Source: a bacterium (GTDB lineage: Bacteria; Zhuqueibacterota; Zhuqueibacteria; Residuimicrobiales; Krinioviventaceae). From it: a stretch of DNA of 64,000 nucleotides. Each line of letters begins with the position of its first letter. Within the stretch, counting starts at the first letter, position 1. Position numbers and translations under genes: made by a program. This document shows, piece after piece, positions 47,291 through 63,688 of the stretch. The DNA is taken from assembly GCA_029561455.1 (NCBI GenBank), contig JAKQIY010000030.1:248001-312000 (forward strand). The letters are read 5' to 3'. Under the pieces are notes generated by a model. It had not been told where the DNA came from. It ran no database searches and saw only the letters and a list, made by a program, of their open reading frames with translations.

Positions 47291-47418
47291 AAAATAAAAG
47301 GACATGTAGGTATTTTGATGCAATTATTAAAAATATTTAAAATTTTCTTGCTTTTTTAGTTAATTGAGTATATTTTGTATATAGTTGTTTAATGTTGTAT
47401 AATCTTTTAAGGACGTCA

Positions 47419-48516
47419 ATGGAAAAGTACTATTCAATCAGTGAAGCGGCGGATATTCTCGGCGTAAACAAGGAAACATTGCGCAGATGGGATAAAACCG
47501 GCAAGTTTACTACCAACAGAAATCCAATCAATAATTACCGGGTTTATACAGCGAACCAGGTTAATCAATTTGTCAAAGATCTGCAACTGGATTATGTTAC
47601 TCAATATACTACAGAAAAACTGGAAAATCCATATTTTAAAACAGCGCTTGGTGAACTATATAATATGGATGTAATAAAGTTTTTAGGAACAGTTGCAAGT
47701 GAAACAGTTGATCTTATTTTTGCCGATCCACCTTATAATATTAAAAAAGCCGAATGGGATTCTTTTCAGTCTCAAAAGCAATATGTTGAATGGAGTCTTG
47801 CCTGGATCAGGGAAGCGCACCGTATTCTCAAACCAAATGGCGCACTCTATATTTGTGGATTTTCTGAAATATTAGCTGATATAAAATGGGCGGCTAATTA
47901 CATGTTTAAAGGCTGTAAATGGCTGGTATGGTTTTACCGGAATAAAGCCAATTTAGGGAATGATTGGGGGCGATCTCACGAAAGTATATTACATTTTCGC
48001 AAAGGCAAGGATTTCATCTTCAATATGGATGAAATAAGGATTCCTTACAATGCTCATACTCTTAAATATCCCAAGCGCCCGCAAGCGGTTACTTCGCAAT
48101 ATAGTAATGGCAAAGGCAAGCAATATATATGGGAGCCTAATCCACAGGGCGCTAAACCCAAAGATGTATTAGAGATACCAACCTTGTCTAATGGTTCCTG
48201 GGAAAGAACCGCCCACGAAACCCAAAAACCGGTGGAATTGGTTAAAAGATGTGTATTATCTTCTTCATATCCCGGGCATTTGATTGTTGATCCTTTTGGC
48301 GGTTCGGGTACAACTTTTGCCGTTGCAGAAGCCTTCTCACGTAAATGGCTGGGCACAGAGATTAATCCGGTCTATTGTGAAATTATCAAACAACGACTAT
48401 CAAATTCCATAGAAATAAATCGTATCGCTACCGGCAAAGATGAAATTGAGGCTGTGGAAAGAAGAAAAAAATTACGAGTAAAGAAAACCCCAGATATCAT
48501 TCAATATCAATTTTGA
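47419..48516 (+). CDS. Type II DNA methyltransferase fused to a MerR-like HTH domain
   Basis: 365 residues from the ATG at 47419, which has AAGGA upstream; an ATG at 47392 overlaps a TATAAT box and is unlikely. Residues about 1-60 are a MerR/excisionase-like helix-turn-helix (YYSISEAADILGVNKETLRR, NNYRVYTANQVNQFVKDL). The methyltransferase follows in beta-class order: motif IV ADPPYN (103-107), a central target-recognition region, then HETQKPVELVKRC and the SAM-binding VDPFGGSGTTFAVAEAF with WLGTEINP. It methylates adenine-N6 or cytosine-N4 at an unknown site. The HTH may repress its own promoter. It converges with the endonuclease, with a 45-bp overlap. Confidence 0.9.
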   Translation: MEKYYSISEAADILGVNKETLRRWDKTGKFTTNRNPINNYRVYTANQVNQFVKDLQLDYVTQYTTEKLENPYFKTALGELYNMDVIKFLGTVASETVDLIFADPPYNIKKAEWDSFQSQKQYVEWSLAWIREAHRILKPNGALYICGFSEILADIKWAANYMFKGCKWLVWFYRNKANLGNDWGRSHESILHFRKGKDFIFNMDEIRIPYNAHTLKYPKRPQAVTSQYSNGKGKQYIWEPNPQGAKPKDVLEIPTLSNGSWERTAHETQKPVELVKRCVLSSSYPGHLIVDPFGGSGTTFAVAEAFSRKWLGTEINPVYCEIIKQRLSNSIEINRIATGKDEIEAVERRKKLRVKKTPDIIQYQF

Positions 48517-49371
48517 AAATGGAAATATATAATTATTGAAAGGGGCCTGTTTTGCTACTTTGGGTACATCCAGATAATAATAACCCTCCAATTCAGTCAA
48601 AAATTTTGTATATACCATAAACAAATTAGAGACAAAAGTATAACTTATTTTTGGTTCTTTTGTGTCATCTTTTCTTTGAATATCATTTTGCGAAATTCCT
48701 AAAATTCTTACCGGATGGCCTAAAAATCTTTCCATTAAGAGTTTATCGATAAAGATTTTCGGCATTCTGTCTTTAGTTGTTGTTTTTAAAGATATTACGA
48801 TTTCATCAGGGTCAATATCTTTCGCATTCGATTTTACATTTTTATAGGGTGATATAACAACATCTGTTTCACATTTATAATATTTTACTCCTTCGTCGGT
48901 GTCATAAGGAATATTTAATATTACTTTTTTCATCGGTATTGCTATTGTTTGCAGAATTATTCGTATCAATTCTTCAAAACGGTTCCCTACATGTTTTCTT
49001 GAACTGTTGGGTTCAACTAGCAGATCGAGACCAATTCCGATTGACTGTTGGATTGTATAAATTACTTTATCTACAATATCATATTGGTTTTTTTCAAAAA
49101 CACGCTGACCTCCCTTTAGGTAATTAAATATTTTTGAAAGTTCGTTATACTCCCGGAGAAAAATATCCGGTTCTCTAATAAACAGATTTTGATGAAATGG
49201 TCTTATCGTCTTTTTCGTACCTGCTATTGTTGAAGAACAAATGATATAATCGGAAAAGTGGGTTTCTTTATTAATCATATCCCGCATATAATTTAAAACT
49301 CTGATAGATACATTAACAAATTCTCCCATCGAGTTTTTAGGAGCTTGCAGATCTTCTACTAATGTTATCAT
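48472..49371 (-). CDS. Probable type II restriction endonuclease (PD-(D/E)xK)
   Basis: 299 residues from the ATG at 49371, which has an AAGGA site 6 bases upstream; an ATG at 49416 lacks one. A PD-(D/E)xK-like core can be read: GNRFEELIRIIL (E133/E134), YYKCETDVVISP (D170) and EIVISLKTTTKDRMPKIF (K196), the S-x-K version of the catalytic E-x-K. The KTTTKDRMPKIF-type stretch recalls endonucleases of several type II systems. The position against the methyltransferase makes it the cognate enzyme. The 3' ends overlap by 45 bp in convergent orientation, which could dampen expression of both. Specificity unknown. Confidence 0.78.
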   Translation of the reverse strand: MITLVEDLQAPKNSMGEFVNVSIRVLNYMRDMINKETHFSDYIICSSTIAGTKKTIRPFHQNLFIREPDIFLREYNELSKIFNYLKGGQRVFEKNQYDIVDKVIYTIQQSIGIGLDLLVEPNSSRKHVGNRFEELIRIILQTIAIPMKKVILNIPYDTDEGVKYYKCETDVVISPYKNVKSNAKDIDPDEIVISLKTTTKDRMPKIFIDKLLMERFLGHPVRILGISQNDIQRKDDTKEPKISYTFVSNLFMVYTKFLTELEGYYYLDVPKVAKQAPFNNYIFPFSKLILNDIWGFLYS

Positions 49372-49433
49372 ACCCGATCCTTTTTTTATGTTATCTGTTA
49401 ATAATTTTATTTGCAAAAATGTGTTCTTTTGTT

Positions 49434-50204: not shown

Positions 50205-53200
50205 ATGCGCTCCATGGAGAAAAAATCGTTACTCCTGGTTGATGACGAAATGCTGATTGCAATGAATAGCGCCAAAGTTATCCAGAGCTTTGGGTATGAT
50301 GTAGTAATGGCTAATAGCGGCAGCAAAGCAGTCGATATTGCGTTGAGTAATGACAAGATCAGCCTGGTTCTGATGGATATTGATTTGGGCAAGGGGATTG
50401 ACGGCCCCCAGGCCGCGCGGTTGATCCTGGAAAAACGCAACATCCCGATTGTTTTTCTGACTTCTCATTCGGAAAAGGAATACGTAGACCGGGTAAAAGA
50501 GATTACCAGGTATGGATATGTAATAAAAAATTCCGGGGATTTTGTATTACGTTCTTCTATTGATATGGCGTTCGAGTTATTTGAAGCCAATAAAAAATTG
50601 CACGATAGCGAAGAATCACTCGCCATCACATTCCTGTCCATTGGCGATGCCGTAATCGCCACAGATATTAACGGTCTTATTACCCGCATGAACAGCAAAG
50701 CTGAACAATTGACCGGCTGGCGTTTTAACCTGGCTATCGGCAGATCCCTGGAAGAAGTGTTTAAAATATTCAATGCCAGTGACCGCAGTATCCAAATAAA
50801 TCCCGTTAAAACAGTACTTGATTGTAAAGATAATGTTGCGCTTGCCAACAATACCGTGTTGATCAGTAAAGATGGCAAGGAATACCAGATTGCCGATAGC
50901 GCCGCGCCGATTCGGGATAATAACGGCATTATTCGCGGCGTTATTTTGGTATTCTCCGATTATACGGAGAAATACCGGGTTTTGGAGGAGTTACGTGAAA
51001 GTGAAGAACGTTATCGCGCTGCATTTAATACCAGTCCCGATTCCATCATTATTTCTACCTTGAAAGGACTGTGGATAGATGTTAATGACAGCTTTACACG
51101 GATTACCGGATTTACACGGGATGAAGTAGTTGGCAAGCTATCTGAAGTATTACCAATTTGGGATAACCTGGAAGAGAGAAAGGTTTGGGTTAAAGAATTA
51201 CAGGAAAAGGGCTCGTGTATCAATTTCAGGGCGGTTATGCGGGCAAAAGATCATTCACCAATCATTGTATTGCTTTCTTCACGGATCATTACTATAAACC
51301 AGGTACCACATATTTTTTCAATCGCCAAAGATATTACCCAATTGGAAAAAGCGGAGCAGGCCCGGAAAGAGAGTGAGGAGCGATACCGCGCTGCTTTTAT
51401 TACCAGTCCGGATGCCTTTATCATATCCACCATTGACGGACTTTTGATAGATATTAATGAAAGTTTCAGTAAGTTGACCGGTTACCAAAAAGAAGAAATT
51501 GTTGGTAAACTTGCTTCAGAAACAAATATCTGGGCCAACCCTGAGGATCGGGAAAAATGGATAAAAGAATTACTATCTGCCGGGGTTTGTGAAAAGTATC
51601 CAACCAGTATGTTTGGCAAGGATAACAAACTCCTGAATATAGTGTTGTCTTCGCGCATTATCAGGATCAACCAGGTCGAACATATTCTTACTATAGCCCA
51701 GGATATAACTGAACTTGTACGAACTGAACAGATATTGCGCGACAGCGAGGAAAGATACCGCGCCGCCTTTTTTACCAGTCCTGATGCTATTTCTATTACA
51801 ACACTTGATGGAAAGTGGATAGATGTAAATAATAATTTTTCAAAATTGACCGGATTTACCCGCGACGATATTTTTGGGAAAAAGTCTCTTGATATTTCAA
51901 TTTGGGTAGAAACTGATGACCGGGAAAAATGGATAAAAATTTTACTGGAAAAAGGCGAGTGTGATGACTTTGAAGCGCAAATGAAACGAAAAGATAATAT
52001 TATCAACACCGTTTTATTATCTTCACGTTTAATTTCCATAAACAATGAAATGCATATTTTTACAGTTGCCAAAGATATTACTGAGCTTAAAAAGAAAGAT
52101 CAGGACCTGCGGGAAAGTGAGGAAAAATACCGCGCTGCATTTCAAACCAGCCCCGATGCTATTAATATTACTACCATGCAGGGTGTCTGGATTGATATTA
52201 ATGAAGGGTTTACCAAAATTACCGGATTTACAAGGGGTGATGTTATTGGCAAGAACTCTACAGAGATCGATATTTGGACGAATCCTCAAGACCGACAAAC
52301 TTTGGTAAAGGGCTTACAGAAAAATGGGGTTTATGAAAACCTGGAAACTGTTTTGCGCTGTAAAGATGGATCACTGATAACAGTGCTCATGTCGGCGCGG
52401 ATAATCATGATTAATCAGCAGTCTCTTATACTTTCAATTACCAGGGATATTACCCAACGTAAACACGCCGAACTGGCTTTGAAGGAAAGTGAGGAATGGC
52501 ACAAAGCGATTCTGCAAACGGCAATGGATGGTTACTGGCTGGTTGATATGCAGGGGCGCTTGCTTGAAGTTAACGAGACATACAGCCGGATGTGCGGCTA
52601 TAGTGTCCAGGAACTGTTAACGATGCAAGTTTCCGAACTCGATGCGGTAGAATCTTCTTCGGATGTCATCTCCCGTATCCAAAAAATGATTGCATTAGGG
52701 GAGAATCGCTTTGAAACCCGGCACCGCCGTAAAGATGGCAGTGTTTTTGATGTTGAAGTCAGTATTCAGTACCGGCCGGTTGCGGGCGGGTGTATAGTCG
52801 CTTTTCTGCGCAATATTACTGAACGAAAATTGATCGAGCAAAGTCTTGCAACAAGTTTGCATGAAAAGGAAACGTTATTACACGAGGTCCATCTCCGGCT
52901 GCGGAATTTTTTGTATCAGGTCTCTAACCTGCTCAATGCCCAGTATGACGGTTTTAAAAACCGGCAAGATATTTTGACAGCGCTGGAAAATGGAAAAAAA
53001 CGCATTAATTCTATTGCCCTGGTGCACGGGTTATTATACGAGTCAGATGATTATTCACACATTAACATGGAAGTGTTTATCCAAAAACTCGCGCCTCAAA
53101 TACTGCATTCTATCGATTGCGGGAAAAAAATTAGTATTGATATTGCCGTTAAAAATATATTTTTAAATATCGATAATGCAGTTAGTTGTGGTCTTTTAAT

Positions 53201-53483
53201 CACTGAATTGATGACCAATGCCTGTAAACATGCTTTCCCTGACCGCGATACCGGGAATATTTCCATTATTCTAAAACCTGTAAGTGAGAATTTACTGGAA
53301 CTTGTAGTTGCGGATAACGGTATCGGGTTTAATAAAAACGAATCGGACGACAAGGGTCTGGGAATGATGTTGATACAGTCACATATTGCGCAATTACATG
53401 CCGGATTGGAATACAGTTATAACGATGGTACAGTTTGCCGGATTGTATTTCCTGCTAATCATGCGTTAGAACCAGGTATTTAA
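50205..53483 (+). CDS. Receiver-multiPAS hybrid histidine kinase (HisKA_2)
   Basis: A 1092-residue cytosolic kinase. A CheY-like receiver (about 5-120; acidic pair DDE, phospho-acceptor D58 in LVLMDIDLG, lysine in YVIKNSGD) is followed by a PAS domain (about 130-255). Four tandem PAS repeats then run from about residue 267 to 762, each exactly 124 residues and starting SEE(R/K)YRAAF-TSPD. Another PAS domain (about 763-880) precedes the kinase. The H-box EVHLRLRNFLYQVSNLLNAQ keeps the first histidine (H896) but departs from the usual HHRVKNN. The ATPase domain has LITELMTNACKHAFPDRDTG, DNGIGF and KGLGMMLIQSHIAQL. It is first in a five-gene operon; the next gene starts 21 bp later. Confidence 0.93.
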   Translation: MRSMEKKSLLLVDDEMLIAMNSAKVIQSFGYDVVMANSGSKAVDIALSNDKISLVLMDIDLGKGIDGPQAARLILEKRNIPIVFLTSHSEKEYVDRVKEITRYGYVIKNSGDFVLRSSIDMAFELFEANKKLHDSEESLAITFLSIGDAVIATDINGLITRMNSKAEQLTGWRFNLAIGRSLEEVFKIFNASDRSIQINPVKTVLDCKDNVALANNTVLISKDGKEYQIADSAAPIRDNNGIIRGVILVFSDYTEKYRVLEELRESEERYRAAFNTSPDSIIISTLKGLWIDVNDSFTRITGFTRDEVVGKLSEVLPIWDNLEERKVWVKELQEKGSCINFRAVMRAKDHSPIIVLLSSRIITINQVPHIFSIAKDITQLEKAEQARKESEERYRAAFITSPDAFIISTIDGLLIDINESFSKLTGYQKEEIVGKLASETNIWANPEDREKWIKELLSAGVCEKYPTSMFGKDNKLLNIVLSSRIIRINQVEHILTIAQDITELVRTEQILRDSEERYRAAFFTSPDAISITTLDGKWIDVNNNFSKLTGFTRDDIFGKKSLDISIWVETDDREKWIKILLEKGECDDFEAQMKRKDNIINTVLLSSRLISINNEMHIFTVAKDITELKKKDQDLRESEEKYRAAFQTSPDAINITTMQGVWIDINEGFTKITGFTRGDVIGKNSTEIDIWTNPQDRQTLVKGLQKNGVYENLETVLRCKDGSLITVLMSARIIMINQQSLILSITRDITQRKHAELALKESEEWHKAILQTAMDGYWLVDMQGRLLEVNETYSRMCGYSVQELLTMQVSELDAVESSSDVISRIQKMIALGENRFETRHRRKDGSVFDVEVSIQYRPVAGGCIVAFLRNITERKLIEQSLATSLHEKETLLHEVHLRLRNFLYQVSNLLNAQYDGFKNRQDILTALENGKKRINSIALVHGLLYESDDYSHINMEVFIQKLAPQILHSIDCGKKISIDIAVKNIFLNIDNAVSCGLLITELMTNACKHAFPDRDTGNISIILKPVSENLLELVVADNGIGFNKNESDDKGLGMMLIQSHIAQLHAGLEYSYNDGTVCRIVFPANHALEPGI
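51003..52490 (+). repeat. Four in-gene PAS repeats of exactly 372 bp
   Basis: The unit start (GA-GAA/G at the SEE codons) recurs at 51003, 51375, 51747, 52119 and, as the next PAS begins, at 52491. The spacing is 372 bases each time with no insertion or deletion, while the sequences have diverged. Confidence 0.9.
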
Positions 53484-53504
53484 AACATATAATATGGCTT
53501 GATA

Positions 53505-56500
53505 ATGAAAATTCTTAAAAACATAATTTTATTTCTAATCCCTGTAATTATTATTTGGGGTTCATATTATGTTTACCATACCTGGGTATCGGAAATAAAT
53601 AAAAATAAAAAAGAAGCGCAGATTATTGCAGAAACTGCTGCCAATGCCATAAATGGTATAAGCTTAGAAAGAACCATTAAGGAAAACAACATTTTTGACT
53701 ATGATGCTTATTCTACCATAAAAAACAGATTAATGCAGTTCAGAATTATTTATGATCAAGTACGTTTTGTTTATATTTATACACAAATAAATGGGAAATT
53801 ATATATCGTTGCCGATTCCGAACCGGTTTTTGCGCATGATTATTCTCCGCCTTTCCAGGAATATACCGAAGCATCAGAACAATACTGGATACCCTTTTCC
53901 TCCAAAAAAACCCTGATCACGTTACCTGTTACTGACCGTTGGGGTGAATGGATAAGCATTCTAGTGCCGCTTTATGAGGCAAAGAGTGGCCATATTCACC
54001 TGGTATTTGGCATAGATTATTATGCAGATAACTGGACAAAAAGCGCCTTTCTGCATACATTACGAATGGGAATCCTGATCATTACGCTGGTTTTATTGTT
54101 ATTAACATTTTACCTGATTGTTAATAAAAATGAACAGTTGAAAAAAGAAGGCGCTCTTTTGGAAAAAAGTGAAAGTCGCTTAAAAAGAGCCCAGGTGCTG
54201 GCTCATGTCGGTAACTGGGAACTCGATTTGCAAACCAAGTTAACCTGGGTTTCTGATGAAGCTACAAGAATATTTGGCATTAACAAAAATATTAACACTT
54301 TTCCTTTTGATGCCATAAAACGGATAGTTCATCCGGATGACAGGGCCGGCCGGGAATTAGCTTTACAACAGTTGCTTACAAAAAATATTAAATATGATTT
54401 CGAATTTCGCATTATCCGTCCTGTTGATGGACAGGAGAGAATCCTGCATTCTAATGCTGAGCTTGAATATGATGAACATGGCAGGCCGGAAAAAATAACT
54501 GGTGTAATACAGGATATTACCGAACGTAAAAAAGCACAACAAGAACTTGTTAAAAAGACTGAAGAACTGGATAACTATTTCACCAATGCCCTTGATCTGT
54601 TTTGTATAGCCAATACCAATGGCTATTTTATAAAACTGAACAAAGAGTGGGAAAATACCCTCGGTTATACTCTTGATGATATGGAGGGAAAGAAATTCTT
54701 TGATTTTATCCATCCTGATGATCTGCAGCCAACCCTGGATGCAGTAGCAACCCTTGCCGGGCAGGAACAAATTCTAAATTTTATTAACCGGTATCGGGCA
54801 AAAAATGGCGCTTATCATTTTATTGAATGGCGTTCCAAACCAGCCGGCAACCTGATCTTTGCCGCCGCCCGCGATATTACCGAACGTAAAGCAACGGAAA
54901 ATTTGCTTCAACAAACCAGGCAGAATTATGAGACCTTTTTTAACACCATCGATGAGTTTCTTTTTGTTCTCGATGAGAATGGCAATATTCTGTATACCAA
55001 CAACACAGTAATCAATCGTCTTGGTTATAGTAGTGAAGAATTAAGTGGATTATCTGTATTATTGCTCCATCCGCCGGAGCGGCGGGAAGAAGCCGGCAGA
55101 ATAGTATTAGAAATGTTGGAAGGGAAAGTCCAATTTTGTCCGGTGCCGATCATGACTAAATCCGGCAAGTATATTCCTGTCGAAACCAGGGTTACCCGTG
55201 GTATGTGGGATGGTAAACCGGTGTTGTTTGGCGTTAGCAAGGATATATCACTATTAAAATTTTCTGAAGAGAAATTTTCTAAAGTTTTCTATATCAACCC
55301 ATCGGCCTGCGGACTAAGCGATGTAGTTACCGGAAAATATATTGAAGTTAATGCAGCTTTTTATTCATTGTTAGGTTTTTCCAAAGATGAAGTTATTGGT
55401 AAAACAGCCTCAGAGCTGGGTATATTAAGTCAGATTACCAAAAAGGAGATATTATCTTACACCGGTAATGACGGGAAAGTTACCAATGCAGAAACCCATT
55501 TGATTGCCAAAAATGGTGAGATCAAAGACGTATTATTATCCGCAGATATTATTGAGCTTCAAGACCGAAAATATCGTTTTACCGTTGTTAATGACATTAC
55601 CGAACGAAAGCGAATGGAAGAAGCCCTGCGTGAGAGCGAGGAAAAGTATCGCCTGTTAATTGAAAACAGCCATGATGTTATTTATACATTAAATTTTGAT
55701 GGAAAATTCCTGTTTGTATCCCCGGCATGGACAACTCTGCTGGGGCACCCGGTGGAAAAAGTAGTAGGTAAAAATTTTCAGGAATTTGTTCATCCGGACG
55801 ATATTCCAGCTTGTCTGGCCTTTCTCCATAAGGCTGTTTCATCCGGGCAACGTCAGGAAGGAATTGAATACCGGGTCCGGCATAATGACGGCTCCTGGCG
55901 CTGGCATACGTCCAGCGGGGTTCCCCTATTGAATAGTGTCGGCCAGGTTATTGGCTATGAGGGTATTGCACGGGATATAAACGACCGCAAACGCATAGAA
56001 AAAGAACTGATTGAAAGCGAAAAAAGATATATTCTGGCAATAGAAGGCACCTCTGCCGGGCTGTGGGACTGGGATATGATTAACGACAAAGTCATGTTTT
56101 CTCCATATTGGAAGAGTATGCTTGGCTATGCTGACCCTGAAATTAGCAATGATTTTAAGGGCTGGCAAAATTTGTGGCACCCGGATGATAAAGAAAATAT
56201 TGAAAAAATCATTCAGGATTATGTTGAGGGTAAAACCAATCATTATGAGGTCATTCATCGCCTGCGCCACAAGAATGGCGACTGGCGCTGGATTTTGACC
56301 CGCGGCGTATTGTTACGCGATGCTGCCGGAAAACCGAGCCGCTGGATTGGCACCAATCTCGATATTACTGAACAAAAATTGACTGAAGAAAAGATCAAAT
56401 CCCTGCTGGCGGAAAAAGAGATCATACTCAAAGAAGTGCATCATCGTATCCGCAATAATATGAATACTATCCGCAGTCTATTATATTTACAGGCCGGTTC

Positions 56501-57008
56501 CGTGAATGATCCGGCAATTATTGACGCTCTCAAGGATGCCGGCAGCCGTGTGCAAAGCATGATGATCCTTTACGATAAATTATACCAAACCACTCAAACC
56601 AGCGAAATGTCGGTAAAGTTGTACTTTCAAGAGTTGGTGCCGCAAATAATAAGTAACTTTCCCAACCGGGATTCGGTTCAGGTTAACATGAATATTCAGG
56701 ATTTTATCCTCGATGTAAAAAGATTGTCGCCGCTTGGTATTATGGTGAATGAGCTATTGACAAATATTATGAAATACGCCTTTAACGGCAGAAAAGACGG
56801 CATAATTACCCTGAGTGTAACCTGTGAAATAAATATAATCGTTTTAGTAATTGACGACAACGGTAACGGCTTGCCGGAGAATATTAATTTTGAAAATTCG
56901 ACCGGTTTTGGCCTTATGCTGGTCGCTATGCTTACCAAACAATTGGATGGCAGTATAAAAATTGAGCGTGATAATGGCACAAAGATTGTACTGCAATTTG
57001 AGAAATAA
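53505..57008 (+). CDS. Membrane multi-PAS sensor histidine kinase (HisKA_2)
   Basis: 1167 residues from the ATG at 53505; a TTG two codons earlier is less likely. Transmembrane helices at about 5-22 and about 183-205 enclose a roughly 160-residue extracytoplasmic sensor of dCache-like appearance (VRFVYIYTQINGKLYIVADS). At least six PAS/PAC units follow, several closing DITERK. The kinase has the canonical HisKA_2 box KEVHHRIRNNMNTIRSLLYL (H979/H980) and an ATPase domain with MVNELLTNIMKYAFNGR and DDNGNGLPENI. It is second in the operon, 21 bp after the receiver-PAS kinase and 30 bp before the TonB-type receptor. The output regulator is not adjacent. Confidence 0.93.
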   Translation: MKILKNIILFLIPVIIIWGSYYVYHTWVSEINKNKKEAQIIAETAANAINGISLERTIKENNIFDYDAYSTIKNRLMQFRIIYDQVRFVYIYTQINGKLYIVADSEPVFAHDYSPPFQEYTEASEQYWIPFSSKKTLITLPVTDRWGEWISILVPLYEAKSGHIHLVFGIDYYADNWTKSAFLHTLRMGILIITLVLLLLTFYLIVNKNEQLKKEGALLEKSESRLKRAQVLAHVGNWELDLQTKLTWVSDEATRIFGINKNINTFPFDAIKRIVHPDDRAGRELALQQLLTKNIKYDFEFRIIRPVDGQERILHSNAELEYDEHGRPEKITGVIQDITERKKAQQELVKKTEELDNYFTNALDLFCIANTNGYFIKLNKEWENTLGYTLDDMEGKKFFDFIHPDDLQPTLDAVATLAGQEQILNFINRYRAKNGAYHFIEWRSKPAGNLIFAAARDITERKATENLLQQTRQNYETFFNTIDEFLFVLDENGNILYTNNTVINRLGYSSEELSGLSVLLLHPPERREEAGRIVLEMLEGKVQFCPVPIMTKSGKYIPVETRVTRGMWDGKPVLFGVSKDISLLKFSEEKFSKVFYINPSACGLSDVVTGKYIEVNAAFYSLLGFSKDEVIGKTASELGILSQITKKEILSYTGNDGKVTNAETHLIAKNGEIKDVLLSADIIELQDRKYRFTVVNDITERKRMEEALRESEEKYRLLIENSHDVIYTLNFDGKFLFVSPAWTTLLGHPVEKVVGKNFQEFVHPDDIPACLAFLHKAVSSGQRQEGIEYRVRHNDGSWRWHTSSGVPLLNSVGQVIGYEGIARDINDRKRIEKELIESEKRYILAIEGTSAGLWDWDMINDKVMFSPYWKSMLGYADPEISNDFKGWQNLWHPDDKENIEKIIQDYVEGKTNHYEVIHRLRHKNGDWRWILTRGVLLRDAAGKPSRWIGTNLDITEQKLTEEKIKSLLAEKEIILKEVHHRIRNNMNTIRSLLYLQAGSVNDPAIIDALKDAGSRVQSMMILYDKLYQTTQTSEMSVKLYFQELVPQIISNFPNRDSVQVNMNIQDFILDVKRLSPLGIMVNELLTNIMKYAFNGRKDGIITLSVTCEINIIVLVIDDNGNGLPENINFENSTGFGLMLVAMLTKQLDGSIKIERDNGTKIVLQFEK

Positions 57009-57038
57009 TCTATAAATAGTGAGTTATTGAGGAGAACG

Positions 57039-58994
57039 ATGAATACAAAGAGATGGTCGCTAATCGTTTTATTGGTTTTAGCTCTTTTTCATTTAACACA
57101 CGCGGAAGAAATTGACATCAGGTCGATGTCGCTTGATTCTCTGTTAAACATACCCGTCAGCGCTGTTTCCAAGTATGAACAAAAAAGCAGTGAGGCGCCA
57201 TCGTCGGTTACAATTATTACTGCCGATGATATTAAAAAATTTGGCTACCAGACATTTGATGAAATTTTAGCAGGCGTACGCGGATTTTATATTAATAATG
57301 ATCGTAATTACAGTTACCTTGGGGTGAGAGGATTCGGCAGACCGACTGATTATAATAACCGTATTAAAGTATTATTGAATGGCTGTACTTTAAATGATAA
57401 TATTTATAACAGTTCGTTGCTGGGGTCGGAATTGGCGCTTTCCCTGGAAACCATTGAGCGTCTGGAAATTGTCCGGGGACCGGGTTCCGTGATCTATGGC
57501 ACGGGAGCAATGCTTACCGTTATTAATATAATTACCAAAGATCCCACATTCGATGAGGGCTTTACAACAGTACTCAAAACCGGAAATTTTGGTAAAAAAC
57601 AGTTCGATCTAACCTGGAGCCGGGAATTTAATAACAAATTGCAAATCTTTGTTTCCGGATTGTGGGGTGAAATTTCAGGCGAGGATATTTATTTTAAAGA
57701 ATATGATACGCCGGAAACCAACAATGGTATTGCCAGAAATCTGGATTGGGACAAGTATTATGGCAATTTTGTTCATGTATCATTTAATAACTTTACTTTA
57801 CAAACATTGTTTGCTCAAAGGGAAAAGGCTGTCCCAACCGCGGCCTGGGGAGTGATGTTCAATAACCCTGACTCACGTGTGTTAGATCAGAGAATGTTAC
57901 TGGAACTTGGTTATAAAAGGAAATTAGGCTTTAATTCATCGCTATCCGGACGGATTTTTTTAAACAGTTATAAAAATGATCAGACATATCCTTTTGATGT
58001 TAATTTTTATGATGACGCCGAAGGCCGCTGGTATGGCAGTGAATGGCAATATCTTTGGGATGTTTTTTCAAATTTACGGGTAACCGGCGGTCTGGAATAT
58101 CAAAATTTTTATAAAACGCAATACATCTATAAAACTGACAATGATATTGTTTTTATGTATGATAAACCCCAGCATCTCACCGCACTATATGTTCAAACTC
58201 AATACCAACCCCTGCATAATCTATCCTTTACATTAGGTGTGCGTCATGAAGATTATAATATTACCAGCGCCTCAACGACTCCAAGAATAGGGATAATTTT
58301 TAATCCCAATAATAAGCGTACATTCAAGTTATTATATGGTAAAGCTTACCGGATCCCGGATATTTATGAAAAAAATTACCTGGAACCGGACTATCAAAAA
58401 GTTAATTATGGACTGGAATCAGAACAGATCACAACCACAGAATTAGTTTATGAACAAAAATTTTCCCGCACTATTTATGGCATTCTGTCGATATATGATT
58501 ACTCTATATATGATTTGATTGAATTAACATTGGATAATGCCGACTCCCTGCACTGGTACGTAAACCTGGGTAAAACCAATGCTCGCGGTATAGAAATGGA
58601 ATTTAATGGCAGGTATGAAAATGGGTTTTCCTGGTATTTTAACACATCCTGGCAAAAAGCACAGCTCACCGAAAATAAAATCCATATCAGTAATTCACCC
58701 GAACTGTTGCTAAAGGCAGGTGGTATAGCCCCGGTTACATCTTTTATGAACGCGGCGGTGGAATTTTTATATGAAACGGCGCGATATACTTTAACCAATT
58801 CAAAATCTAAAGCGTATTTTTTGACGAACGCAAGTTTAAATTCAAATACATTTGGACAGCATTTCAGGATCAATTGTACGGCACGAAATCTTTTTAATGT
58901 TAACTATGCACTGCCGGGAGGGCTTGAGCACGAACAGGATTTAATTCCCCAAAAGGGTCGTACTGTTACTTTAGGCGCTGAAATAAAATTTTAA
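57039..58994 (+). CDS. TonB-dependent receptor-like outer-membrane protein of the signalling operon
   Basis: 651 residues from the ATG at 57039, which has GAGGAGAACG upstream. A signal peptide (about 1-22) leads to a mature start EEIDIRSMSLDSLLNIPVSA, then the plug (SSEAPSSVTIITADDIKKFG, YLGVRGFGRPTDYNNRIKVL, ERLEIVRGPGSVIYGTGAML) and a barrel ending TLGAEIKF. There is no CarboxypepD_reg-like domain, unlike the receptor at 6.5-8.6 kb. Its S-LDSLLN-PVSAVSK opening is of the receptor subgroup I associate with neighbouring YfiR-like and sensor genes. It may serve as a signal-sensing receptor as much as an importer; ligand unknown. It ends 5 bp before the YfiR-like gene. Confidence 0.9.
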   Translation: MNTKRWSLIVLLVLALFHLTHAEEIDIRSMSLDSLLNIPVSAVSKYEQKSSEAPSSVTIITADDIKKFGYQTFDEILAGVRGFYINNDRNYSYLGVRGFGRPTDYNNRIKVLLNGCTLNDNIYNSSLLGSELALSLETIERLEIVRGPGSVIYGTGAMLTVINIITKDPTFDEGFTTVLKTGNFGKKQFDLTWSREFNNKLQIFVSGLWGEISGEDIYFKEYDTPETNNGIARNLDWDKYYGNFVHVSFNNFTLQTLFAQREKAVPTAAWGVMFNNPDSRVLDQRMLLELGYKRKLGFNSSLSGRIFLNSYKNDQTYPFDVNFYDDAEGRWYGSEWQYLWDVFSNLRVTGGLEYQNFYKTQYIYKTDNDIVFMYDKPQHLTALYVQTQYQPLHNLSFTLGVRHEDYNITSASTTPRIGIIFNPNNKRTFKLLYGKAYRIPDIYEKNYLEPDYQKVNYGLESEQITTTELVYEQKFSRTIYGILSIYDYSIYDLIELTLDNADSLHWYVNLGKTNARGIEMEFNGRYENGFSWYFNTSWQKAQLTENKIHISNSPELLLKAGGIAPVTSFMNAAVEFLYETARYTLTNSKSKAYFLTNASLNSNTFGQHFRINCTARNLFNVNYALPGGLEHEQDLIPQKGRTVTLGAEIKF

Positions 58995-58999
58995 ATTTT

Positions 59000-59584
59000 A
59001 TGAAAAATTATAAAATCCGACATAACTTTTTAAAGCTGATAACGGTCATTTTTCTATTACTTTGCACGATAGTAGCAGGGCAGGAAATCTATTTACCAGT
59101 AAAGACTCAATTGCAGTTGTTTTTTAAAATTTTAACTTTTGATCGTAATCTCAGGCAACGCGCCGGCTCTGAATTGGTGTTTTGTGTTGTTTATCAGGCA
59201 AAATTTCTATCGTCTTACAATATTAAAAGTGAAGTTGTCGAAGAATTTGAAAATGTTATTGCAGGGATGAACGATTATAATCTGAAAATTATGACAGTTG
59301 ATTTGGAATCGGAAAACCTGGAAAAAGCTGTTATTGACAAAAAGATAGATATTTTATATATTGCCCCGATACGAGCTTTTGATTTGCAAAAAATTTTGCA
59401 AATCAGCCGCAAGTACTATATATTAACAACTACCGGTGTGCCGGAGTATGTGCAGGCTGGTGTAACCGCCGGAGTTACTATTAAAGATAACAAGCCCCTT
59501 ATTCTTGTTAACATTTCTTCTGCGAAAAAGGAAAATATTGATTTCAGTTCACAGTTGCTCAAGCTAGCCAGAATTTATGATTAA
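59000..59584 (+). CDS. YfiR/HmsC-like (DUF4154) periplasmic protein
   Basis: 194 residues with a signal peptide (about 1-27, [18 protein letters not shown]). The mature chain has the YfiR-like order: [33 protein letters not shown], a helical middle, [15 protein letters not shown], and the closing [20 protein letters not shown], which matches the typical DUF4154 ending. In Pseudomonas, YfiR is a periplasmic repressor of the CHASE8 diguanylate cyclase YfiN. Here the next gene, overlapping by 8 bp, encodes a kinase with a CHASE8-like sensor, so an analogous inhibitory contact is likely; that is inference. Confidence 0.78.
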
Positions 59585-61046
59585 ACAGTTACGGTCTCTC
59601 ATCCCGTTCCATTTCCAGCCCAGGTACAGTACTATCAGAACAAGACTTGTTCTTTTGATCTCTGTTCTGATAGCGGGTATTTCCATATTTATATATTTAT
59701 ATTTTCCGGCCGCTTTGCAAAGACAAGAGTTAAAGAACTATACTAAAAGCGCTGTCAGTATTGCCGAAATGACTGCATACAGTATTGCGCCAGCCCTGTT
59801 TTTTGGCGATACCAGTAGTGTTGCCGAGGTATTAAACAGCGTCAAACAAAATCCGGATTTTAATTTTATTGTTGCTTTCAATGATGGTGGTCGTATTATC
59901 GCCGTTGAAAGTGAAAATGATGATTTTTCTGTTTATACTGACAGTATTAACGTACATCATGATAATTATATTTCACCTGACGGGCGGATTATGGTCACGC
60001 AAACGCCGGTTACTATTAATGCCCAGGTACTCGGCAAGATTGTTTTGGGATTGTCTCTCGACGATTTGCGAAAAGCTGTAAATGACAGTAAGAAAACCAC
60101 GGCTCTTGTCAGCCTGGTGATTCTGTGTACGGGTATTATTGTGGTAACTGGTATCAGCGCCTTATTAACCCGTCCTCTGGGGCATATAGTCGATACCATT
60201 GAACGCATCGCCGCCGGAGATTACAGCCACAGAGCCAATCCATCTTCCAGCCTGGAAGTGAACCGGCTGGCAGGAACATTCAACCAAATGGCGGAGCGGA
60301 TACAACTGGCCCAAAATCAACTTGAACAGATGAATCGCGATCTGGAAAAACGGGTACAACAGCGAACCGGGGAGTTGCGCAAGGAAATAATCCAGCGTAA
60401 ACGCGATGAGAAAAAGATCATTGCATCCCTACGCGAAAAGGAAGTATTATTAAAAGAGATACACCACCGGGTGAAGAACAACCTGCAAATTATTCAAAGC
60501 CTGTTGTATTTACAGTCACAGGGTGTTAAAGATAGTAAAGCACAGAATTTCTTTACCGAAAGCGTCAACCGTATCCGCAGTATTGCGCTGTTGCATGAAA
60601 AACTCTATAAAACCGGCGATCTGGCGCGCATTGATTTTTCCGACTATGTGCGTGACCTTGTGCAGGGTATTTACCAGGCCTTTGATTTTCATAATAATTT
60701 AATTAAATTTGATATTCATGTTACGCGGTTTTATCTCAGTATTGATATGGCAATCCCCTGCGGGTTAATTGTAAATGAACTGGTTTCCAATGCCTTGAAA
60801 CATGCTTTTAAAACAAATACCGGGGTGGATAACATAATCAAAGTTGTTGCAAAAAAAACGGATGATAAACACTTGTTCATTTCCATTCAGGATAATGGCT
60901 GTGGCATACCGGATAATATTGATATTGAAAATAGCTCCAGCCTGGGGTTAAGACTGGTGAATAGCCTGGTTAAAGATCAGCTTAATGGAAATATGCAAAT
61001 GCTGGTTGATGCGGGAACCAGGTATGATATTATTGTTCAGGTATGA
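59577..61046 (+). CDS. CHASE8-like/HAMP sensor histidine kinase (HisKA_2)
   Basis: 489 residues. TM1 is about 23-43 and TM2 about 176-197. The periplasmic segment between reads like CHASE8, the YfiN sensor ([20 protein letters not shown], then [20 protein letters not shown]). HAMP (about 198-250) and a coiled coil ([20 protein letters not shown]) lead to the kinase, with the H-box [20 protein letters not shown] (H296/H297), [26 protein letters not shown] and [11 protein letters not shown]. It starts within the YfiR-like gene (8-bp overlap), so the two are translationally coupled. It should pass a periplasmic signal to a separate response regulator, possibly the receiver of the operon's first gene. 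Confidence 0.92.
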
Positions 61047-61220
61047 TTTTGTATTCCTGCCATTCGTTGTTTTGATATTTGATCCTTTTATTATTTTACG
61101 GGTAACATTTCCTTTTGCTGATCGTATTTATATATAATTCATTCAGGTTAGCGGGTGAATATCCAGTGAGCATCGGTGTATAATAATCAGTACAATAATT
61201 TATCAAAAGAGGGAACGGTT

Positions 61221-63623
61221 ATGAAGCACATACACAGTGTAATTTTAGCGTTTTCGTTAGTTGGTTTGGTTTTATCCCCGGCATCGCTTTTGATTGCCGG
61301 TAAACCTCAACTCGCGGCTTACCATGAACCGGCGGCCGATCAGTTTATGACCGAGTGGATTATCTCTTCACCAATTTCTGTATTCTCTGTAGATCCTGAT
61401 AATAAGGAAGAAGAATTACAAAAGCGGGTATTTGCCGCCGATTTACTGGAAAAAGTAGGCGGAGAAGCCGGTCTGGATTTTACGGTTATCTCGAAAAAAG
61501 ATCAGGCAATAACCTGGCGAACAATCAAGTCCGATAACTTTGCAATCGACCTGATAAAGGAATTTGGAGAAAAAGAGTTTGCCGTTATCTATGCATATAC
61601 CGAAATCAATGTCAGTGTGGAGCAAAAGGTTTTGCTGGGCATTGGCAGCGATGATGGCGTTAAAGTTTGGCTTAACGGTAAGCTGATCCATGAAAACTGG
61701 TTGAGTAGAGGTGTGCAGGCCGATAACGATCTTGTGCCGGCAATATTACAACAAGGTGTAAACCGGCTTTTACTCAAAGTGCAAAATATTCAAGGCGAAT
61801 GGGGATTTGCCTGCCGGATTATGAGTAAAACCTCGCTGGCAGATAAAGTGGTGAATGCCGCGGAATTGGGCGACCTGGATAAATTTAAAATGCTGCTGGA
61901 CTATGGAGTGGATATAAATATAAAAGGCGTCAACGGATTAACGCCTTACCAGGCCGCGCAAATTAAGGGTCGGGCGGACATTCAGCAATTTCTGCTTGAA
62001 AAAGGCGCGGATACGAGTGTTGCCATGCCTACTGCCCGGGAACTGACCGATAACCAGTTTAATCATTTTTTTAATAATAAAACCTCCGGCGCTGCCGTGC
62101 TGGTTGCCCGCAACGGCGAGATCCTTTATCAAAACGGCTATGGAATGCAGAATATAAAAAAGCGCCTTCCGGTCACGCCTGAAACTGAATTCCGCATTGG
62201 CTCCATTACCAAACAATTCACAGCCGCCGCTATTTTAAAATTACAGGAAGAAGGCAAACTGTCGGTTACCGATAAATTATCCAAATACTATCCCGATTTC
62301 CCACGCGGTGATGAAGTGACCATTCATCACCTGCTGACCCATATCTCCGGTATTCACAGCTATACGAACAGTCCGGGTTTTTTAAGCAATGTCGAAAAAA
62401 CTATCAAATCCCCCGACCTGATTGAAATAATTAAAACCGACCCTTATGATTTTGATCCGGGTGAACAATGGAAATATAACAATTCCGGGTATTTTATTCT
62501 CGGTCATATTATTGAACAGGTTTCCGGATTATCCTATAATGATTTTTTGCGAATAAACTTTTTCGAACCGCTGGGAATGCATAATACCGGTGTTCATTAT
62601 AAAGGGATAAAGTTGGAGCACGAAGCCGCCGGATACTCATTTGAAGGCAGCAGTTGTAATTTAGCATTAAATTGGGATATGTCCTGGGCCGGCGGCGCCG
62701 GCAACTTGTATTCAACAGTCGGTGATCTGTTCAAATGGAATGAGGGATTGTACAGTGGTCAAGTGCTTAATGAATCCTCTTTGCAAGCTGCTTTTACCCC
62801 GGTTAAATTAAACAACGGCGACATACCGCAGGAAGTTGGCAAATATGGGTATGGACTAGTTATTGAAGAATTCCGCGGTGTAAAACGAATCGGGCATGGC
62901 GGTGGGTTGAATGGCTTTTCAACCTATTTGGTTCGTTTCCCGAAATTGAATATTACTGTTATCGTGTTATCCAATGCCCAGCCCGGAGCGCCAGGTTTTT
63001 CTCCAAATAACGCCATGCTTGATATTACCGAGTTCTTTTTCTACCCGGAATTAGCAAGCCGTAATTCATTAGTTACCGATAAATCCGTCGATCCGAAAAC
63101 ATATCCCGATTTTGTTGGCCGATATGATTATACCAGGGGCGTTATGGAATTCACTGTTGAAAATGATAAACTATATGCCCAATTTACCGGCCAGGGCAAA
63201 GCGGAGGTATTCCCTGCCGGGCAGGATGAATTTTTTTGGAAGGCTGTTGAAGCCCGTGTTAAATTCCTGCGCGATGAGAACGGCAAGGTTTCCCATGTTG
63301 TTCATTACCAGGGTGGCCAGGAGATTAAAGCCCCGCGCTTGGTGGATACCCCGGTGGCCCCGGTTGATCCTGCTATTTATGATTCTTATGTGGGCGATTA
63401 TCAACTGGCGCCAAATTTTATACTCACAATCAGTAAAGAAAATAACCGCCTGTATACACAGGCTACCGGGCAAGGCCGGTTCGAGATATTCCCGAGTTCG
63501 GAAACAGAATATTTTTTAAAGGTGGCTAAAGCCGAGATTACTTTTAACAAGGATGAGAGTGGAAAGGTTGTATCTCTAACTCTGCACCAGGCCGGTAGAG
63601 ATATGCAAGCGCCCAAAAAATAA
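61221..63623 (+). CDS. Exported class C beta-lactamase-fold serine hydrolase with ankyrin and C-terminal repeat domains
   Basis: 800 residues from the ATG at 61221, which has GAGGGAACGG upstream; an ATG at 61176 precedes the signal. After the signal peptide is a beta-sandwich region (LLGIGSDDGVKVWLNGKLIH, ligand-binding-like), then about two ankyrin repeats (VVNAAELGDLDKFKMLLDYG; AAQIKGRADIQQFLLEKGAD). The beta-lactamase-type domain has S-x-x-K in RIGSITKQFTAAA (S328, K331), Y-x-N in KYNNSGYFILG and the H-x-G box GHGGGLNGFS. Two DUF3471-like repeats end the chain (FVGRYDY..., YVGDYQL..., each with YAQFTGQG/YTQATGQG and a FPAGQDEFFWK-like motif). It is probably a periplasmic peptidase or esterase. 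A terminator follows. Confidence 0.9.
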   Translation: MKHIHSVILAFSLVGLVLSPASLLIAGKPQLAAYHEPAADQFMTEWIISSPISVFSVDPDNKEEELQKRVFAADLLEKVGGEAGLDFTVISKKDQAITWRTIKSDNFAIDLIKEFGEKEFAVIYAYTEINVSVEQKVLLGIGSDDGVKVWLNGKLIHENWLSRGVQADNDLVPAILQQGVNRLLLKVQNIQGEWGFACRIMSKTSLADKVVNAAELGDLDKFKMLLDYGVDINIKGVNGLTPYQAAQIKGRADIQQFLLEKGADTSVAMPTARELTDNQFNHFFNNKTSGAAVLVARNGEILYQNGYGMQNIKKRLPVTPETEFRIGSITKQFTAAAILKLQEEGKLSVTDKLSKYYPDFPRGDEVTIHHLLTHISGIHSYTNSPGFLSNVEKTIKSPDLIEIIKTDPYDFDPGEQWKYNNSGYFILGHIIEQVSGLSYNDFLRINFFEPLGMHNTGVHYKGIKLEHEAAGYSFEGSSCNLALNWDMSWAGGAGNLYSTVGDLFKWNEGLYSGQVLNESSLQAAFTPVKLNNGDIPQEVGKYGYGLVIEEFRGVKRIGHGGGLNGFSTYLVRFPKLNITVIVLSNAQPGAPGFSPNNAMLDITEFFFYPELASRNSLVTDKSVDPKTYPDFVGRYDYTRGVMEFTVENDKLYAQFTGQGKAEVFPAGQDEFFWKAVEARVKFLRDENGKVSHVVHYQGGQEIKAPRLVDTPVAPVDPAIYDSYVGDYQLAPNFILTISKENNRLYTQATGQGRFEIFPSSETEYFLKVAKAEITFNKDESGKVVSLTLHQAGRDMQAPKK

Positions 63624-63648: not shown

Positions 63649-63688
63649 AACCTTGCAGATGATTTTTATCTGCAAGGTTTTTTATTTT
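63649..63688 (+). terminator. Rho-independent terminator of the serine hydrolase gene
   Basis: Perfect 12-bp stem AACCTTGCAGAT...ATCTGCAAGGTT with a 7-base loop, followed by TTTTTATTTT. Confidence 0.9.

Follow-up and report, generated by a model that had tools for sequence, protein, structure and literature searches.

The closest described relatives of the gene set considered here are the Yfi systems, and in Pseudomonas, going by the portions of two papers covered here, YfiR keeps YfiN inactive, while YfiB recruits YfiR to the outer membrane (PMC3375315, PMC4655355). The same portions of the first of these (Malone 2012) report that most Yfi systems far from Pseudomonas have no YfiB, and describe YfiB-less systems with kinase, Hpt, GGDEF-EAL or methyl-accepting chemotaxis protein (MCP) outputs (PMC3375315). 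Our subject is a locus of this kind in a 64,000-nucleotide stretch of bacterial DNA, which we call the window (G000:C61:248001-312000, where G000 is the source genome, of 5.85 Mb in 85 contigs; G-numbers stand for genomes of the phylum, G037 being a relative of the same genus, C for contigs and L for loci). Five co-directional genes on its plus strand, numbered 1 to 5 from the left, encode two multi-PAS HisKA_2 proteins, a TonB-dependent receptor, a YfiR-like protein with a DUF4154 domain and a sensor kinase with a CHASE8 domain, an order and domain content that reading-frame positions and Pfam searches bear out just as an initial annotation of the sequence had them. The recurring module is the three right-hand genes: receptor, YfiR-like protein and CHASE8 kinase.

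Like YfiBNR of P. aeruginosa and YfiR-DgcN-YfiB of E. coli, the locus has a DUF4154 protein beside an inner-membrane protein with a CHASE8 (PAS-like) domain and HAMP; the fold of YfiR is kept, according to a structural model, and so is the invariant Phe of the YfiR-binding segment in CHASE8. It differs in its output, which is HisKA_2/HATPase_c where YfiN has GGDEF, in having a TonB receptor in place of the OmpA-like lipoprotein YfiB (a Pfam search limited to the five genes and the one downstream found no OmpA-type domain in them), and in a YfiR-like protein that has no cysteine pairs and carries Ile for Phe162. The initial annotation had seen in this a Yfi system re-wired from c-di-GMP to phosphotransfer; the kinase output is real, with both HisKA_2 and HATPase_c found in gene 5 by Pfam, but it is not new, since kinase and chemoreceptor outputs on YfiN-like proteins have been known since 2012, as the sections covered of PMC3375315 make plain. 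The modular YfiR-YfiN[PAS/HAMP] core set out in that paper likewise pairs a YfiR homologue, in synteny, with a PAS/HAMP protein of another output. What the covered sections do not describe is a receptor as input, the receptor box reported below or an output of the HisKA_2 type, and the term TonB is absent from the main text.

Curators have already noticed the set, because NCBIfam names three families as associated, namely NF053590 (the TOL_0244 receptor), NF053591 (the YfiR-like TOL_0243) and NF053592 (a YfiR-associated kinase). All three window proteins match these models, whose names imply receptor, YfiR-like and kinase genes lying side by side as they do here, with scores far below the cut-offs (130.9 against 645, 31.8 against 125 and 65.9 against 194 bits). 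A literature search that excluded most subscription journals and any bioRxiv preprints found no paper on a receptor-YfiR link, a receptor input or the box.

Signalling from a TonB-dependent receptor to the cytoplasm is known mainly from the FecA-FecR scheme, and FecA-FecR-FecI resembles the window set in using such a receptor as the outer-membrane input. The window receptor differs in having no STN domain (only plug and barrel were found, with Pfam at E values up to 10), and no anti-sigma or sigma genes adjoin it, the corresponding domains being absent by Pfam from the five genes and the downstream gene. A second likeness is to LuxP-LuxQ, where a periplasmic protein of the binding-protein fold acts on the PAS-like sensor of a kinase; the YfiR-like protein of the window, by contrast, is one lobe only, and the set includes an outer-membrane receptor gene.

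Recurrence of the three-gene module

Across a survey of 82 genomes of the phylum, DUF4154 is found in 30, at 47 places that we count as 45 loci owing to tandem copies in two genomes; neighbours were called adjacent when on the same strand and within 4 kb, and CHASE8 proteins and receptors were detected with profiles built from these loci. The receptor-DUF4154-CHASE8 synteny, whose frequency the initial annotation had left to a genome count, does recur, both partners being present at 26 of the 45 loci. At least one partner is present at 42/45; besides the 26, there are loci with CHASE8 only (10/45), a receptor only (6/45) or neither (3/45). This puts a receptor near 32/45 and CHASE8 near 36/45, far above the chance we estimate from gene counts of the source genome (about 3% per random gene for a TonB receptor and about 0.3% for a CHASE8 gene). 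Among the six receptor-only loci, L070 and L078 end within 100 bases past the YfiR gene and L079 ends after a CHASE8 stub. Judged by Pfam alone, CHASE8 is found in 29/39 and a receptor in 6/39 of the same-strand downstream neighbours of DUF4154, and a plug in 24/38 of those upstream. From the opposite side, DUF4154 lies within 4 kb of 35 of the 61 CHASE8 places, and of the 26 without a Pfam DUF4154 at that distance, 18 were inspected and three had a divergent YfiR-like neighbour. DUF4154 (30 genomes) and CHASE8 (34) occur together in 28 of the 82 genomes (p 7e-14, uncorrected for kinship). In the source genome itself all three genes are found together once more, at C24, while YfiR and kinase lack a receptor at C26 and receptor and YfiR lack a kinase at C43.

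The YfiR proteins of the window's group are split from the common group by a branch with 100/100 support, in a tree with an unsettled bootstrap, a very long branch for E. coli YfiR and L076 and L077 omitted. These two loci (G071:C30 and G070:C92), also left out of the YfiR alignment, carry a pair of DUF4154 domains within a single open frame, and a CHASE8 protein comes next. A core motif of the window type, [DN]-[IVL]-x-Y-x-x-P-[LI]-R, is present in 18/18 window-type rows and 0/36 others, where 10 of the 18 had been found with a pattern of this same motif.

Those 10 come from a contig search for window-type loci that yielded 15, of which one is a duplicate and four were already counted; since the search used the motif pattern, presence of the motif in them is no independent test. 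Their record titles name Calditrichota/Calditrichaeota, KSB1, Latescibacterota, Poribacteria, Ignavibacteriae, WOR-3, Gemmatimonadota, Acidobacteriota and Actinomycetota, and the spread of the module beyond the phylum rests on these 15 named loci. One of them, L118, titled Actinomycetota, matches G038 of the source genome's own family, so its title is probably wrong. A receptor lies upstream at 8 of the 10 new loci, the other two starting at a contig end, and a same-strand CHASE8 protein downstream at 8/10, the CHASE8 match of L132 being on the opposite strand. Some loci have receptors in tandem beside a single YfiR gene: L054 has three ahead of it, L051 three behind it, and L128 (1603-12006), whose record title names Poribacteria, has four TonB receptor genes leading up to a YfiR-CHASE8 kinase pair. 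L123 and L124 lie on one contig (JAKEEG010000075.1) and share match and gene layout but run opposite ways; the assembly may have produced an artefactual palindrome there.

The YfiR-like protein and the CHASE8 kinase

The two domain assignments that the initial annotation had left to profile searches are secure, both lying above the curated Pfam cut-offs: DUF4154 in gene 4 (6.2e-12, 46.3 bits against 24.9) and CHASE8 in gene 5 (1.2e-8, 35.6 bits against 27), where HAMP, HisKA_2 (7e-29) and HATPase_c follow. An AlphaFold2 model of the YfiR-like protein, with a mean predicted local distance difference test score (pLDDT) of 93.4, matches YfiR 4zhu at Z 15.2 (root-mean-square deviation, rmsd, 3.3 over 147 residues); Z is much the same for substrate-binding proteins (3lft, Z 16.1, rmsd 6.8, 172 residues; 6k1x, Z 15.6, rmsd 2.7, 144 residues), with LuxP 1zhh lower at Z 9.0. 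Its only cysteines are Cys22, in the signal-peptide region, and Cys62.

In the kinase, the CHASE8 segment APALFF-GD aligns with the AAVVF segment of E. coli DgcN, and Phe76, invariant in a seven-row CHASE8 alignment, corresponds to the Phe of the published YfiR-binding segment of YfiN. The model of the kinase N-terminus (pLDDT 88.8) matches PAS-like sensors, among them WalK 4ywz (Z 13.0, rmsd 2.8, 126 residues) and CitA 2j80 (Z 12.4, rmsd 3.2, 110 residues). Outputs vary from locus to locus, with HisKA in 14/39 and HisKA_2 in 9/39 of the proteins downstream of YfiR. At L085 (6425-8525) the gene directly after the YfiR-like one encodes a HAMP-MCPsignal chemoreceptor, whose N-terminal part is recognised by our custom CHASE8-HAMP profile though not by Pfam CHASE8, and receptor genes lie beyond it; at G000:C26 (L159:2708-7161) a CheA-like gene adjoins that of a chemoreceptor that has HAMP, HAMP_2 and MCPsignal and matches CHASE8 below the cut-off. 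Such a mixture of chemoreceptor and kinase outputs agrees with the modularity described in PMC3375315. The source genome has 26 matches to the gene 5 kinase, mostly to its HisKA_2 end. Another kinase, at G000:C36:288389-289825 (L002, L067), is a HAMP-HisKA_2 protein 38% identical to gene 5; its gene follows one for a phosphonate-binding-type periplasmic protein, not YfiR, and it has no Pfam CHASE8 match.

A sequence box in YfiR-linked receptors

The receptor carries, just before its plug, a box of 18 residues with the rough consensus x-S-L-E-E-L-M-N-x-x-V-T-x-A-S-K-x-x, first spotted by reading the receptors of the source genome. Because a regular expression failed to pick up the receptor of the window itself, the box was scored instead with a position matrix, built on 20 receptors of other genomes whose selection as seeds used a pattern written after viewing the sequences. 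Run on all 111 plug-bearing genes of G000, G037 and G015, the matrix scores at least 15 in 7/8 receptors next to a Pfam DUF4154, as against 2/103 others. One of these two, at G015:C46, adjoins a divergent YfiR-like gene missed by the Pfam search, so that the box match in fact led to a gene that Pfam had overlooked; with this correction the box is found in 8/9 YfiR-linked receptors and 1/102 others (p 1.8e-10, kinship ignored). Because the motif was first seen in G000, the fair test is the one confined to G037 and G015, where 6/6 YfiR-linked receptors and 0/68 others have the box (p 5.4e-9; before correction 5/5 against 1/69, p 3.7e-7; kinship ignored in both). With one locus left out at a time, it is found in 36 of the 37 YfiR-neighbouring receptors with complete N-termini, two with cut N-termini being excluded, and the lone exception, at G000:C43, has an insertion within the segment. 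As a mark of YfiR-linked receptors the box is new here.

How the module may work, and what else it might be

By analogy with Pseudomonas, the best reading places the receptor where YfiB stands and the kinase where YfiN stands, because CHASE8 and DUF4154 are real, the synteny recurs widely and the output is a kinase. We would put at about even the chances that the three proteins form a single module reaching from the outer membrane to the cytoplasm. The receptor would bind its ligand at the outer membrane and, when loaded, would engage the YfiR-like protein through the periplasmic box; the YfiR-like protein would then be freed from, or altered in its grip on, the CHASE8 domain; and the activity of the kinase would change, phosphate passing to a receiver, most likely that of a REC-HisKA_2 protein whose gene lies a little past the window's end. 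The domains, the recurrent gene order, the YfiR fold as predicted and the tie between the box and YfiR-linked receptors are what the analysis shows; how receptor, YfiR and CHASE8 touch one another, in which direction the kinase is regulated, and what serves as ligand and as phosphate acceptor are what we infer. Where several receptors stand next to a single YfiR gene, the arrangement suits a role for the receptors as inputs and for YfiR as their hub. More tentatively, and with the balance tipping somewhat to the other side, the box of one class of TonB receptor might be a periplasmic plug-in that hands a ligand signal to the YfiR family, giving a general route from receptor to kinase or chemoreceptor in several phyla, separate from FecA-FecR, and furnishing the missing outer-membrane input of YfiB-less Yfi systems.

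Several observations weigh against the proposed three-protein module. Ten of the 45 loci have CHASE8 with no receptor nearby, which means that some sets either do not need a receptor or have it elsewhere; the window protein lacks the cysteine pairs of YfiR; and an alignment puts Ile at the place of YfiR Phe162, a residue central to YfiN binding (PMC3375315, in the sections covered). The receptor at G000:C78 has the box and yet no YfiR-like gene in the 16 kb examined. The TonB box of such receptors is expected at about the same place as our box. This overlap raises the thought that the latter may serve transport and signalling together, or may simply descend with one receptor subfamily.

The alternative that survives best, which we nonetheless hold to be unlikely, is a binding-protein model, in which the receptor would import a ligand and the YfiR-like protein, related as a single lobe to periplasmic binding proteins, would capture it for presentation to the CHASE8 kinase in the manner of LuxP and LuxQ, so that receptor and YfiR would not have to touch. 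The model of the YfiR-like protein does match the substrate-binding proteins 3lft and 6k1x as well as it matches YfiR, LuxP itself ranking lower, and the related C36 kinase follows the gene of a phosphonate-binding-type protein; but that kinase lacks a Pfam CHASE8 match, a single lobe has no binding cleft of the kind formed between two lobes, and the box common to YfiR-linked receptors is left unexplained. Less probable again is that YfiR and the kinase are an envelope-stress or redox pair, as in YfiBNR, with the receptor only co-expressed, as a target and not an input. The ten YfiR-CHASE8 loci without a nearby receptor, such as C26 of the source genome, would suit this, whereas receptor-YfiR pairs without a nearby CHASE8 gene (G000:C43 and G015:C46), a box that marks receptors adjoining YfiR, and the loss of the YfiR cysteine pairs all speak against it. 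That five unrelated signalling genes have come to lie together by accident, for which one might cite the absence of the two left-hand kinases from beside the module in G037 and the 26 kinase matches in the source genome, is very improbable as a whole and largely refuted for the three right-hand genes, which recur in two deeply split YfiR clades far above estimated chance, while for genes 1 and 2 it is likely.

The neighbouring genes and the phosphate acceptor

The initial annotation had treated all five genes as one unit, and this did not hold up: only the right-hand three recur, and genes 1 and 2 (Table 1) are probably neighbours outside the conserved module. G037 keeps the order receptor (49% identity), YfiR (42%), kinase (48%) and beta-lactamase-family hydrolase (59%), without genes 1 and 2 beside it. 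The receiver of gene 1, the acceptor originally suggested, was set aside as first choice, since gene 1 is not conserved next to the module in G037, where the best match to its REC part is only 38% and on another contig. Likelier is the REC-HisKA_2 protein, of 363 residues in G000, whose gene is close to the module in both G000 (C61:312715-313806, just beyond the window end) and G037, at 60% identity. In HisKA_2/HWE kinases the HR histidine is the phosphate carrier. Of 23 further HisKA_2 proteins encoded at these loci, 22 keep it and one did not match the H-box search pattern; the EVHLRLRN of gene 1 lacks it, so that protein is probably unable to autophosphorylate at the usual site; its receiver could accept phosphate all the same. 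Past the window, the stretch C61:312715-317653 (L083:14715-19653) holds, on the opposite strand, the REC-HisKA_2 gene together with a gene for a 1281-residue multi-PAS HisKA_2 kinase.

Table 1. Features of the locus, in window coordinates
Feature	Position	Strand	Basis and remarks
REC-multi-PAS-HisKA_2 protein (gene 1)	50205..53483	+	Pfam; H-box EVHLRLRN without the HR histidine
multi-PAS-HisKA_2 kinase (gene 2)	53499..57008	+	Pfam
TonB-dependent receptor (gene 3)	57027..58994	+	Pfam plug and barrel; 655 residues from TTG
Receptor N-terminal box MSLDSLLNIPVSAVSKYE	57126..57179	+	Position matrix score 21.2; just before plug
YfiR-like periplasmic protein, DUF4154, divergent clade (gene 4)	59000..59584	+	Pfam, AlphaFold2 model, tree
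Sensor kinase with CHASE8, HAMP, HisKA_2, HATPase_c (gene 5)	59577..61046	+	Pfam; H-box intact
CHASE8 domain of gene 5	59742..60047	+	Pfam, alignment, model
Beta-lactamase-family (PF00144) hydrolase, probable fourth gene of local unit	61176..63623	+	Pfam; same place in G037

With ATG starts (53505 for gene 2 and 57039 for gene 3) the spacing first reported is reproduced, with gaps of 21, 30 and 5 bp and then an 8-bp overlap of genes 4 and 5. For the receptor, ATG 57039 is a likelier start than TTG 57027 because a ribosome-binding-like site, GAGGAGA, precedes it in the start region. Pfam finds Response_reg (1.3e-15), six PAS stretches and HisKA_2 (4e-14) in gene 1, six PAS stretches and HisKA_2 (8e-20) in gene 2, and Plug (5.6e-19) and TonB barrel (4e-24) in gene 3; it gives no convincing match for the N-terminal, probably periplasmic part of gene 2 (53590-54060, about residues 30-185).

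The hydrolase has DUF3471 domains and a weak, below-cut-off ankyrin match, and is 59% identical over 777 residues to its counterpart in G037. It is a probable fourth gene of the local unit; the 129-bp gap after the kinase has no plus-strand terminator-like site by consensus scan, and a terminator-like stem of 14 pairs, again a consensus match only, lies after the hydrolase at 63649-63679. Promoter and terminator scans gave more sites than shuffled sequence (73 against a mean of 48.8, and 23 against 13.8), all of them consensus matches only, as are two promoter-like sites that overlap the junction of genes 1 and 2; the scan placed no plus-strand terminator-like site in the gaps between the five genes. 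Viral contigs searched with the gene 5 kinase gave no match. Further left, at 47392-48516 (+), is what reads as a DNA methyltransferase-like gene with a helix-turn-helix-like start, overlapping the end of a converging gene at 48472-49416 (-), and the two might be a restriction-modification pair.

What a receptor input would mean

One published hint on ligands comes from the receptor after which the NCBIfam model is named, TOL_0244 of Thalassolituus, which, in the part of the report covered here, rises sevenfold on n-C28 alkane relative to Tween 80 and is 40.3% similar to OmpS, a protein that alkane detection is reported to require (PMC6304351). If the receptor is indeed the input of the module, many receptors that are currently unassigned would become sensors, each with a partner kinase identifiable from the genes that follow, and sequence searches with the N-terminal box would pick such receptors out.

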